DNA of 33,493 nt from Burkholderiales bacterium (GTDB lineage: Bacteria; Pseudomonadota; Gammaproteobacteria; Burkholderiales; Casimicrobiaceae). Positions 1,959-33,442 of this stretch are shown here, in pieces. Below the pieces are notes generated by a model, which ran no database searches, had not been told where the DNA came from, and saw only the letters and a program-made list of their open reading frames with translations. The DNA is taken from NCBI GenBank assembly GCA_025935675.1, contig JAICUU010000012.1, positions 1-33,493 of the forward strand, in the 5' to 3' direction. The position numbers were made by a program, and so were the translations under genes. Every line of letters begins with the position of its first letter. The first letter of the stretch is position 1.

Positions 1959-3020
1959 ATGGCGTTCGGCATCCTGCTGCACGCCGTGATCGGGCTGCTG
2001 CCGGTCGGGGGCCTGCTCACCGCGCTGGTCGTGCTCGACGGCTACAAGCTCGTGACGATGCGCGTGCTGCTGCTCGTCGCGGGGGCGGGCGTCGCGGTCG
2101 CCGTCGTCGCGTATTTCGTCAATGGCGCGCTGCTTACGGCCACCGGACTCGAGTTCACCGCGTATTCGCGGTACGTCGGGCCGCTCGTCGAGGAGGCGGG
2201 CAAGGCGCTCATCGTCGTCGCGCTCTTGCGGATGCACCGGATCGGCTTCCTCGTCGATGGCGCAATCCTGGGCTTCGCGGTCGGCACCGGCTTCGCGATC
2301 GTCGAGAACGTCTGGTACCAGGTGCTGGTCCCCGATGCGGGCATCGCCACGTGGATCGTGCGCGGCTTCGGCACGGCGCTGATGCACGGCGGCACGACGG
2401 CGATCTTCGCGATGATGGCGGTGACGATGCTGGAGCGCGCGCCCGAGGCGAAGCTCGCCGGGCTCGTGCCGGGCTTCGCGGTCGCCGTGCTGTTGCACGC
2501 GGGCTTCAACCATTTGCTCGGCTGGCCGCGCCTGTCGACGCTTGTCGTGCTGGGCGTGCTGCCGCCGCTCATCTGGCTCGTCTTCCAGCGCAGCGACCGC
2601 GCGGTGGCCGACTGGCTCGGGCACGGCTTCGATGCCGACGCCGGGCTCATCGAGTCGATCGGCTCGGGCCGTTTCCCGGACTCGCATGCCGGGCGCTACC
2701 TCGCCGCGCTGCGCGAGCGCTTCCAGGGCGAGGTGGTCGCCGACCTCCTGTGTTACCTCCGCGTGCATACCGAGCTCGCGCTGCGCGCCAAGGGCATCCT
2801 GATGATGCGCGAGAATGGCTTCGAGGTTGCGGTCGACAGCGACATGAAGGCGCAGTTCGCGGAGCTCGACTACCTCGCGAAGAGCATCGGCCGCACCGGC
2901 CTCCTCGCGCTGCACCCGCTGATTGCCCGCGACCATCGCGCGATGTGGCAGCTCAATCGGTTGGCGGGCGAAACGGCCGCCGCGCCGGCATCCGCTGCCG
3001 TGCCTCCGCGCGCGCCGTAG
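1959..3020 (+). CDS. PrsW-family intramembrane metalloprotease
   Basis: Multi-TM protein with LVEEAGKALIVV and GFAVGTGFAIVENVWY, plus GTALMHGGTTAIFA and LLHAGFNHLLG, the expected PrsW/CPBP-like Glu-Glu / Glu-Asn / His motif set. Soluble C-terminal extension. Confidence 0.8.
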   Translation: MAFGILLHAVIGLLPVGGLLTALVVLDGYKLVTMRVLLLVAGAGVAVAVVAYFVNGALLTATGLEFTAYSRYVGPLVEEAGKALIVVALLRMHRIGFLVDGAILGFAVGTGFAIVENVWYQVLVPDAGIATWIVRGFGTALMHGGTTAIFAMMAVTMLERAPEAKLAGLVPGFAVAVLLHAGFNHLLGWPRLSTLVVLGVLPPLIWLVFQRSDRAVADWLGHGFDADAGLIESIGSGRFPDSHAGRYLAALRERFQGEVVADLLCYLRVHTELALRAKGILMMRENGFEVAVDSDMKAQFAELDYLAKSIGRTGLLALHPLIARDHRAMWQLNRLAGETAAAPASAAVPPRAP

Positions 3021-3127
3021 CGTCGCTGTCGGTCCGCTTTACATTTCCCCGCCGAGCGCGACCTCCGCCGACGCGGCACGCCGTAATCACGTTGAACATT
3101 CAAGGTGTTGTCGCGGCGTCAACGGGG

Positions 3128-3143
3128 TGGTGCGATTTTTGCG
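3128..3143 (+). promoter_or_regulatory. Candidate sigma54 (-24/-12) promoter of PEP-CTERM gene 1
   Basis: TGGTGCG-ATTT-TTGCG: GG (3129-3130)-N10-GC (3141-3142), matching TGGYRYR-N4-TTGCW except the last base; about 110 nt upstream of the ATG. Confidence 0.6.
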
Positions 3144-3251
3144 CACTACAGCGTTCGACCGGATTGGCAAGCCCGGGCATGGCCTCGAGCCCAGCCCCGA
3201 CAACGAGAGCTTGCGAGTCCCGCGGTCGGGCCCGAAGCGAGGAATCCAGAG

Positions 3252-3866
3252 ATGAACACGGCGGCATACCGCAACCTTCTCGGCGCGGCGATCGCTGCCG
3301 CCGGTTTCACGCTGGCGGGCGCGAGCCACGGCGCGATCTTCAACTCGCACTTCGACCCGAATTCGTTCTCGGGCGACGGCACGTTCCGGATCGACGACGC
3401 ATGCCTCGCGGCGGACGGCTTCTATCTCGGCTCCGAATGCAACGCGACGTTGCTGACGGCGACCGCCGATATCGTCAGCGACGGCAGCGCGGGCACCGCG
3501 CACGTCGACTTCGGGCCGGTCCTGCCGTCGACGGCGGTGCTGGAGATCGAGATCTCGGGCGGCACGCTGGTCGGTGTCGACACGGACTGGATCGGCTGGG
3601 CCTTCGCCGACAGTTGCACGGGCGACCTGTGCGGAACGATTCCCTGGTGGATCCGCTGGGTGAACCCGGATTCCGATCCCGTCGAGCTCGCCACCGGCAC
3701 CTGCGACGGCGTGGAATCCTGCAGTCGCAATACAGGCGATCCGTTCGCCATTGCCGACACGGTGACGTTCACGCGCGTGCCCGAACCCGGCACGCTGGCG
3801 CTCGTCGCCGGCGGATTGTTCCTCGCGTGGAGGATGCGCCGCCGCGGCGCTGCGCCGCGCGGCTGA
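3252..3866 (+). CDS. PEP-CTERM sorting domain-containing protein (paralog 1)
   Basis: N-terminal signal peptide (LLGAAIAAAGFTLAGASHGAIFNSHFDP). C-terminal VPEPGTLALVAGGLFLAWRMRRRG, the PEP-CTERM motif followed by TM and basic tail. Confidence 0.88.
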   Translation: MNTAAYRNLLGAAIAAAGFTLAGASHGAIFNSHFDPNSFSGDGTFRIDDACLAADGFYLGSECNATLLTATADIVSDGSAGTAHVDFGPVLPSTAVLEIEISGGTLVGVDTDWIGWAFADSCTGDLCGTIPWWIRWVNPDSDPVELATGTCDGVESCSRNTGDPFAIADTVTFTRVPEPGTLALVAGGLFLAWRMRRRGAAPRG

Positions 3867-3882
3867 CGCTTACGCATCCCGG

Positions 3883-3908
3883 CGGCGCGCGGCGATCGTC
3901 GCGCGCCG
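3883..3908 (+). repeat. Intergenic hairpin between PEP-CTERM genes
   Basis: CGGCGCGCG-(8 nt)-CGCGCGCCG, perfect 9-bp arms just after the stop codon of paralog 1; no T-tract. Confidence 0.45.
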
Positions 3909-4026
3909 TGCCGACCGCGCTCGCGCTGTCGGCTATCTTTACATGTGGGGGTCGCCGCGCCGGTCGGTCATCTGCGGACGACCGACGCGCCTTTGCATTC
4001 AACGGCTTGGCACGTGCGTCAACTTA

Positions 4027-4042
4027 TGGCTCGCTTCTTGCG
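4027..4042 (+). promoter_or_regulatory. Candidate sigma54 (-24/-12) promoter of PEP-CTERM gene 2
   Basis: TGGCTCG-CTTC-TTGCG: GG (4028-4029)-N10-GC (4040-4041), close to TGGCACG-N4-TTGCW; about 100 nt upstream of the ATG, same layout as gene 1. Confidence 0.65.
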
Positions 4043-4142: not shown

Positions 4143-4814
4143 ATGAATCTCGCCAACCTGCGCAAGCACTCGCGGGCCGTCGCCGCCGTGCTCGCCCTCG
4201 CGTGTGCCGGCCTTTGCCACGGCGCGCTGTTCAATTCGCACTTCGATCCGCTCGGACCGATCACGTTCGACGGCGATGGCCAGTTCCAGCTCGACGATGC
4301 CTGCCTGGCCGCGAATGGCGGCTTCGGCATCTACAGCGGAACTGCGTGCCACGTCTCGCTGTTGTCCGCGATCGTCAACATCAGCGACGGCAGCGACTCC
4401 GGCGTGCTCGACTTCGCCGCCTTGCTGCCGTCGACGGCCATCTTCGATATCCAGATCTCGGGCGGAACGCTGATCGGCGTCAACACCGACTGGATCGGCT
4501 GGACGACGCCGGGCGGCTGCTCCGGCACCCTGTGCGATACCCAGTGGTGGATTCGCTGGACGAATCCGCTGCCGAGCCTCCTGAACGATCCGGTCCAGAT
4601 CGCAACCTGCGCGCAGACGACGGACGTGCCGGAAGTGAAGTCGCTGCGGAATTTTGCCAAGTCGGGATCGGGCGACGAGTGCACGCTCGACCCGGGCACG
4701 GCCGTGACCGCATTCGACGTGACGTTCACGCGTGTCCCCGAGCCGGGCACGCTGTTGCTGGTTGCGGGCGGCCTGCTCGCCGGGTGGCAGGTGCGGCGGC
4801 GCCGGCGTACATAG
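4143..4814 (+). CDS. PEP-CTERM sorting domain-containing protein (paralog 2)
   Basis: Signal peptide then CHGALFNSHFDPLG. Collinear similarity with paralog 1 (DDACLAA, LPSTA, ISGGTL.GV.TDWIGW, WWIRW.NP). C-terminal VPEPGTLLLVAGGLLAGWQVRRRRRT. Confidence 0.88.
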   Translation: MNLANLRKHSRAVAAVLALACAGLCHGALFNSHFDPLGPITFDGDGQFQLDDACLAANGGFGIYSGTACHVSLLSAIVNISDGSDSGVLDFAALLPSTAIFDIQISGGTLIGVNTDWIGWTTPGGCSGTLCDTQWWIRWTNPLPSLLNDPVQIATCAQTTDVPEVKSLRNFAKSGSGDECTLDPGTAVTAFDVTFTRVPEPGTLLLVAGGLLAGWQVRRRRRT

Positions 4815-31921: not shown

Positions 31922-31975
31922 TCAACAGGAGAACGTGCCGGGATGGATTGCGCTAACCTGTTGATTTAGCATCCA

Positions 31976-33442
31976 TTGACGGCGAGTCCAATTTTTGTGT
32001 CTCCGCACATCCACCCCGCACCGGTAACGTCAATCCGCGCTTACGACGAGATGCGCGAGCCGAACGGCGAGGTGCGCCCGCATTACCGGCCGTTTGCCGA
32101 CTGGCTTGCGCGTACCCCGCCCGCTCGCGTCGTTCAGAAGAAGGACGAGGCCGAGCGCGCGTTCCATCGCGTCGGCATCACGTTCGCGGTGTACGGTGCA
32201 GACGAGGGCACCGAGCGCCTGATCCCGTTCGACATCGTGCCGCGGATCATCCCGCTGTCGGAATGGACGATGCTCGAGCGCGGGCTCAAGCAACGCGTCG
32301 CCGCGCTCAACGCCTTCCTCGCCGACATCTACGGGCCGGGACGCATCCTCGAGGCGGGCGTCGTGCCGCGCGATCGCGTGCTCGGCAACAGCCAGTACCG
32401 CGCCGAGATGGCCGGCACGACGGTCCGCAACGGCATCTACGCGCACGTTGCGGGCATCGACCTCGTGCGGGCCGACGACGGGCTTTGGTGCGTGCTCGAG
32501 GACAACCTGCGCGTGCCGTCGGGCGTGTCGTACATGCTCGAGAACCGCAAGATGATGATGCGGCTCTTCCCGGAGCTCTTCGCCACGCAGTCGATCCACC
32601 CGGTCCAGCATTACCCGGACATGCTGCTCGAGAACCTGCGCGCCGTCGCGCCGGCGGGCGAGGACGCGCCGACGGTCGCGGTGCTGACGCCGGGCCCTTA
32701 CAACTCGGCGTACTTCGAGCACAGCTTCCTCGCACAGCAGATGGGCGTCGAGCTCGTCGAGGGCCAGGACCTCTTCGTCCGCGACGACACCGTGTTCATG
32801 CGCACCACGCGCGGCCCGCAGCGCGTGCACGTGCTCTATCGCCGGGTCGACGACGACTTCATCGATCCGATGGCGTTCCGGCCCGATTCGCGGCTCGGCG
32901 TGCGCGGCCTCTTCGCCGCCTACCGCGCGGGACGGGTGACGCTCGCGAACGCGATCGGCACCGGCGTCGCCGACGACAAGTCGATCTACCCGTGGGTGCC
33001 CGACATGATCCGCTATTACCTTGGCGAGGACCCGATCCTCGCCAACGTGCCGACCTGGCGCCTCGCGGATGCCGCCGAGCGCGAGCACGTGCTCGCGCAC
33101 CTCCCAGAGCTCGTCGTCAAGGAGGTGCACGGCGCCGGCGGCTACGGCATGCTGATCGGCCCCATGTCGACCAGGGCCGAGCAGGAGGAGTTCCGCGCGC
33201 GCATCCTCGCCCGGCCCGACAACTACATCGCGCAGCCGACGCTCGCGCTGTCGACGTGCCCGACGCTCGTCGACGCGGGCATCGCCCCGCGGCACATCGA
33301 CCTTCGCCCTTACGTGCTGACCGGCAAGACGTCCGAGGTGGTGCCGGGCGGACTGACGCGCGTCGCGCTGCCCGAGGGCTCGCTGGTGGTCAACTCCTCG
33401 CAGGGCGGGGGCACGAAGGACACCTGGGTGGTGAGCGACTGA
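31976..33442 (+). CDS. Circularly permuted ATP-grasp protein (DUF404/DUF407); start TTG 31976 or GTG 31997
   Basis: YDEM...VRPHYRPFADWL, HRVGITFAVYG, ERLIPFDIVPRIIP, GIDLVRADDGLWCVLEDNLRVPSGVSYMLENR, LTPGPYNSAYFEH, VVKEVHGAGGYGMLIGP, LRPYVLTG. Confidence 0.9.
   Translation: MTASPIFVSPHIHPAPVTSIRAYDEMREPNGEVRPHYRPFADWLARTPPARVVQKKDEAERAFHRVGITFAVYGADEGTERLIPFDIVPRIIPLSEWTMLERGLKQRVAALNAFLADIYGPGRILEAGVVPRDRVLGNSQYRAEMAGTTVRNGIYAHVAGIDLVRADDGLWCVLEDNLRVPSGVSYMLENRKMMMRLFPELFATQSIHPVQHYPDMLLENLRAVAPAGEDAPTVAVLTPGPYNSAYFEHSFLAQQMGVELVEGQDLFVRDDTVFMRTTRGPQRVHVLYRRVDDDFIDPMAFRPDSRLGVRGLFAAYRAGRVTLANAIGTGVADDKSIYPWVPDMIRYYLGEDPILANVPTWRLADAAEREHVLAHLPELVVKEVHGAGGYGMLIGPMSTRAEQEEFRARILARPDNYIAQPTLALSTCPTLVDAGIAPRHIDLRPYVLTGKTSEVVPGGLTRVALPEGSLVVNSSQGGGTKDTWVVSD

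Follow-up and report, generated by a model that had tools for sequence, protein, structure and literature searches.

Two genes for PEP-CTERM proteins stand side by side in the stretch of DNA of 33,493 nucleotides that we analysed (hereafter the window; contig JAICUU010000012.1, Burkholderiales bacterium), and a preliminary description had noticed that both are preceded by a sigma54-type promoter element and by the same upstream words, one of which, CATTCAA, was given no role. What are these shared words for, and why do they keep their distances from the promoter? Quite probably, as far as can be read from their sequence, the two paralogues are each driven by a sigma54 promoter of three parts that works by looping, with sites for PrsR, IHF and RpoN.

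The gene pair and its upstream regions

The PEP-CTERM domains form the C-terminal ends of both products (Table 1), above the curated cut-offs of the Pfam and TIGR profiles, and with 57% protein identity the two genes are paralogues. The PrsW-family gene stops 6 nt short of the first box, and the regulatory region thus begins immediately behind this gene. Aligned with each other, the two upstream regions are mostly diverged, but three constant islands emerge: motif 1, discussed below (17/21 identical, all but the N4), CATTCAA-N4-TTG (11/14, all 10 specified bases being kept) and the -24/-12 element (12/16). The remaining spacer has diverged, with 19/52 identical positions between motif 1 and the CATTCAA box and 4/17 in the other part, and the leader shows 50/116. 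As the genes are paralogous, these two promoters represent one origin with conserved islands and not two independent events. Orthologues of the pair were sought in 149 relatives and gave a single distant match (33%); for this reason the promoters of other PEP-CTERM genes were used for the comparison.

Table 1. Coordinates of the gene pair, of the neighbouring protease gene and of the sites, predicted or probable, that precede each gene
Feature	Position	Strand	Sequence	Remarks
PrsW-family intramembrane protease gene, directly 5' of the PEP-CTERM pair	1959..3020	+		Pfam PF13367, 71.4 bits
Motif 1, gene 1, predicted PrsR site	3027..3043	+	TGTCGGTCCGCTTTACA, 17 nt	TGT-N8-TTTACA scan; matches motif 1 of Haft 2006
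Probable IHF site, gene 1	3098..3110	+	ATTCAAGGTGTTG	8/9 to WATCARNNNNTTR; 5' end at -30 from TGG
Sigma54 -24/-12, gene 1	3128..3143	+	TGGTGCGATTTTTGCG	Spacer from TTTACA 84 nt
Gene 1, PEP-CTERM protein, 204 aa	3252..3866	+		PF07589 22.8 bits, TIGR02595 20.6 bits, both above cut-off
Motif 1, gene 2, predicted PrsR site	3927..3943	+	TGTCGGCTATCTTTACA, 17 nt	Same dyad scan and mismatch scan of the window
Probable IHF site, gene 2	3997..4009	+	ATTCAACGGCTTG	8/9 to WATCARNNNNTTR; 5' end at -30 from TGG
Sigma54 -24/-12, gene 2	4027..4042	+	TGGCTCGCTTCTTGCG	Spacer from TTTACA 83 nt
Gene 2, PEP-CTERM protein, 223 aa, paralogue of gene 1	4143..4814	+		PF07589 25.2 bits, TIGR02595 24.0 bits

The activator box, the sigma54 promoter and their regulon

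Upstream of both promoters the preliminary description had recognized CGCTGTCGG followed by CTTTACAT, the latter at 3037-3044 and 3937-3944, i.e. 92 and 91 nt ahead of the promoter GG. We find both words, at these distances; the gap between them, given as N4-6, is N4 in both genes. TGTCGG-N4-CTTTACAT occurs in the window at two places only, 3027-3044 and 3927-3944, for 0.02 expected even when two mismatches are allowed. To judge by its sequence, CGCTGTCGG-N4-CTTTACAT is motif 1 of Haft et al. 2006 (PMC1569441), who reported that 99 of 167 proteobacterial PEP-CTERM genes are preceded by a 17-nt motif ending in TTTACA and by a sigma54 motif, with a mean spacer of 62.8 nt (SD 10.6, range 32-92), and who named PrsK, PrsR and PrsT from their matching phylogenetic profile. 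The proposal that CTTTACAT is a candidate PrsR site thus holds as an activator-site reading, the predicted site being the 17-nt dyad TGTCGG-N4-CTTTACA rather than CTTTACAT alone; it is not new, since the assignment of an activator together with sigma54 is already found in Haft et al.

The exact GG-N10-GC elements were read from the sequence at 3128-3143 and 4027-4042, before ATGs at 3252 and 4143, in agreement with the preliminary description. By itself TGG-N8-TTGC means little in the GC-rich DNA of the window, where five were found for 2.0 expected and where 8 of 100 shuffles gave at least five. This absence of enrichment would suit a fortuitous origin of the -24/-12 elements, the genes using another promoter and the boxes being unrelated to them. 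Such a coincidence seems to us very improbable, because motif 1 co-occurs at the lattice spacings described below and, in this genome, only before PEP-CTERM genes, and because this layout recurs in pepA of Aquincola, where primer extension and an rpoN mutation served to map it (PMC9850573).

The box is strongly enriched before the PEP-CTERM genes of this genome. The dyad TGT-N8-TTTACA has four sites in the 3.68 Mb of the genome, all four before PEP-CTERM genes (on contigs C60 and C310, and the two of the window), and the reversed dyad pattern has none in the same 3.68 Mb. A combined pattern adds, on C166, a one-mismatch box with a correctly placed -24/-12 before a sub-threshold PEP-CTERM gene, and a weight matrix adds a PEP-CTERM gene on C307 with the one-mismatch box TGTCGGCGGAAATTACA, a spacer of 62 and a correctly placed -24/-12. 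Among the six PEP-CTERM genes above the Pfam cut-off, that of C169 is the only one devoid of a proper box: the search on this contig gave just TGTCGGCCCCTTTGACA, with no good -24/-12 at a lattice distance.

The machinery expected for such a regulon is present as well. On C197 prsK is complete (863.9 bits, over the curated cut-off), while prsR is split over two contig ends (C197:1-809 and C310:19673-20508), its halves scoring 470 and 458 bits, each under the whole-protein cut-off because the gene is cut by the contig end; the protein overlap of the halves is identical and GAFTGA is present. The DNA of this overlap is not identical throughout, the longest exact match being 119 nt, a sign of either strain variation or misassembly at one end. 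On C310 prsT comes next after prsR, beside sugar-nucleotide genes (PrsT 819.8 bits, over the cut-off). The genome also contains an exosortase A (XrtA) with a fused EpsI domain (346 bits), rpoN, and ihfA (144 bits, over the cut-off, the search covering IhfA). On these sequence grounds the window pair is a further case of the known PrsR/sigma54 PEP-CTERM box regulon, for which dependence on RpoN and PrsR is predicted; the layout put forward by the preliminary description, well borne out here by prsK, prsR, prsT, xrtA, rpoN and the enrichment, has already been published.

CATTCAA as a candidate IHF site

CATTCAA is found, as had been noticed, at 3097-3103 and 3996-4002, both 32 nt before the promoter GG. 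Read as ATTCAA-N4-TTG this box is most likely an IHF site. For random spacers composed like those of the window promoters, the P of an 8/9 match at an allowed place is about 0.0015 per gene, the two genes not being independent. Both window sites are 8/9 and not exact, lie in GC-rich surroundings and carry no A-tract. The reverse orientation of CATTCAA-N4-TTG was considered also and rejected as a poorer fit, with the ATW part missing.

We compared three sets of promoters picked by motif 1 and the -24/-12 alone, so without using the spacer: 80 from genome contigs, 28 with long spacers from relatives (the promoters of the window's own genome being left out) and 30 from the class. The exact IHF consensus is present in the spacer of 14/80, 10/28 and 6/30 of them, where dinucleotide shuffles give 0.87, 0.34 and 0.47; the pooled count is 30 of 138 spacers against 1.46 in shuffles, and flanks of equal length contain 4 and 1. 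Matches of at least 8/9 occur in 77 of the 138 spacers against 24 in shuffles. The 5' end of the exact consensus, counted on whichever strand carries it, lies at -10, -19 to -21 or -29 to -31 from TGG in 29/30 cases, in both orientations. This end of WATCAR is taken here to stand for the centre of the bend in the IHF complex. Among spacers of about 84 nt, the match lies at -29 to -31, in either orientation, and the window promoters are alike. In the class 61-65, an unweighted column profile drawn without the consensus shows A at -31/-30, T at -24, G/T at -23, A/T at -21 and A at -16/-15, the same positions as the consensus-based site.

A site of at least 8/9 is missing from about 44% of the promoters, and no IHF consensus was found in the spacer of the C166 promoter, so that IHF would not be universal. 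At this last locus (C166; L150 / L007), an exact IHF consensus, AATCAACAACTTA, stands just 5' of motif 1. Another exact consensus, AATCAACAGGTTA, occurs in the window itself at about 31954-31966 on the minus strand, in an intergenic position behind a tRNA-like sequence and before a gene starting at 31976. In the set of 80 (L025-L104), 42 box promoters have no PEP-CTERM end by a simple pattern within the available sequence; some may control other genes and some are chance, like the Bacteroidetes and Edaphobacter records.

Could the PrsR/sigma54 promoter work here without IHF, CATTCAA and the GCGTCAAC stretch being leftovers of the gene duplication behind both promoters? The paralogy of the genes (57%), the imperfect 8/9 window sites and the absence of a good IHF consensus from many related promoters are in line with this explanation. 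We nevertheless consider it rather unlikely: the 10 specified bases were kept while the other spacer diverged (19/52 and 4/17), and -30 in an 84-nt spacer is where two unrelated promoters, L167 and L169, carry the exact consensus in the same orientation as the window sites (at -31 in L181). In the window's own genome, moreover, other promoters have IHF matches at allowed places, exact at -30 on C310 and at -19 on C60, and 8/9 at -19 on C307. As for GCGTCAAC, it is indeed common to both genes, at 3120-3127 and 4019-4026, just before the -24 element; its distance to TGG differs by one base between gene 1 and gene 2, and as a further site it has no support outside this pair, which alone shares it.

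Alternatively CATTCAA might be the second site of another regulator, e.g. the half site of a second activator, and not an IHF site; the box has only seven bases in one word, and TTCAA may be common to other DNA-binding proteins. This seems improbable to us, because the positioned signal found across genomes agrees with WATCARNNNNTTR in either orientation, the 5' end being common to both, which is expected for a bend site and not for a directional contact, and because sigma54 promoters usually have IHF placed between enhancer and promoter (PMC7962754).

Helical spacing, proposed mechanism and known systems

Measured from TTTACA to TGG, the spacers of 260 promoters form groups at about 52, 63, 74, 84, 95 and 105 nt, with almost nothing between. 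At 10.5 nt the three sets give a Rayleigh R of 0.69, 0.57 and 0.74 (phases of 2, 11 and 360 degrees), and the 260 promoters pooled one of 0.70; the largest R that 300 uniform simulations reached over periods 7-13 was 0.20. These statistics ignore kinship, and Rayleigh p-values are not to be taken literally. In the first set the between-group values (57, 58, 68 and 68) all belong to loci for which no PEP-CTERM gene was found downstream, and the promoters followed by a PEP-CTERM gene fall without exception (38/38) in the lattice groups. This set holds close to one promoter per genome, drawn from alpha-, beta- and gammaproteobacteria and a few other groups, so that kinship by itself would hardly produce such a pattern. 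The distances from the box to the IHF site, 33, 43 and 54, obey the same lattice (R 0.87).

With good confidence, we propose that in the PrsR-type PEP-CTERM promoters across Proteobacteria the box, the IHF bend site and the sigma54 element share a single helical lattice that fixes their positions (52/63/74/84/95/105 nt from box to promoter; IHF 5' end at -10/-20/-30 in either orientation), and that these promoters evolve by gain or loss of whole turns. In the open-access literature we found no report of IHF together with PEP-CTERM or of the spacing lattice, and a helical lattice with a positioned bend appears unreported as a general rule.

In the mechanism that we envisage, phosphorylated PrsR, an NtrC-type activator with PrsK as partner, would bind the TGTCGG-N4-CTTTACA dyad, and IHF would bind ATTCAA-N4-TTG between the dyad and the promoter and bend the DNA. 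The bend would bring PrsR into contact with the closed complex of RpoN-RNA polymerase at TGG-N8-TTGC, which PrsR would then open by hydrolysing ATP. The three sites would need matching helix faces, and the spacing would hence shift in steps of a full helical turn; in the window it measures 84 and 83 nt, the candidate IHF site standing at -30. For the products of gene 1 and gene 2, sorting by exosortase A is predicted. In this scheme we infer the binding of PrsR and IHF, the looping, the start sites and the signal; what is newly explained is CATTCAA, as a probable IHF site.

Helical phasing of enhancer, bend and promoter is visible directly in the sequence of hundreds of natural promoters of one predicted activator, in several proteobacterial classes, and this collection offers a ready natural series for looping tests in sigma54 control. 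With this architecture PrsR targets could also be sought by a more precise pattern, and it predicts that floc formation and the surface proteins associated with exopolysaccharide respond to IHF, hence to growth phase.

How does this compare with known systems? The window pair shares with the regulon of Haft et al. 2006 the 17-nt motif 1, the sigma54 motif 2 and a spacer within 32-92 nt, although its spacers (84 and 83) are long, and the genome shares the single-gene PEP-CTERM units, the long upstream regions and PrsK/PrsR/PrsT. Whereas the spacer was described there by its mean of 62.8 and SD of 10.6, it is resolved here into whole helical turns, with a positioned IHF-like site inside. A tested case is pepA of Aquincola tertiaricarbonis RN12, whose start was mapped at a -24/-12 and whose dependence on RpoN1 was shown in 2023 (PMC9850573); like the window genes it is a PEP-CTERM gene with a -24/-12 and a predicted enhancer upstream, but it was tested experimentally and linked to floc formation, while the window pair is known from sequence alone. 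That paper does not mention IHF. In Geobacter, ihf mutants changed the expression of GSU1943, a PEP-motif exosortase substrate gene (table in PMC7962754).

Finally, in nif, Pu and orp an IHF site between the enhancer and the -24/-12 bends the DNA and joins activator and polymerase (PMC7962754, PMC3897727). The window promoters may resemble these IHF-assisted sigma54 promoters, their candidate IHF site (8/9) lying in the same interval, at the place where other promoters carry exact sites. They would differ by their activator, predicted to be PrsR, by a candidate IHF site unusually near the promoter, and by a fixed lattice that extends over many promoters.
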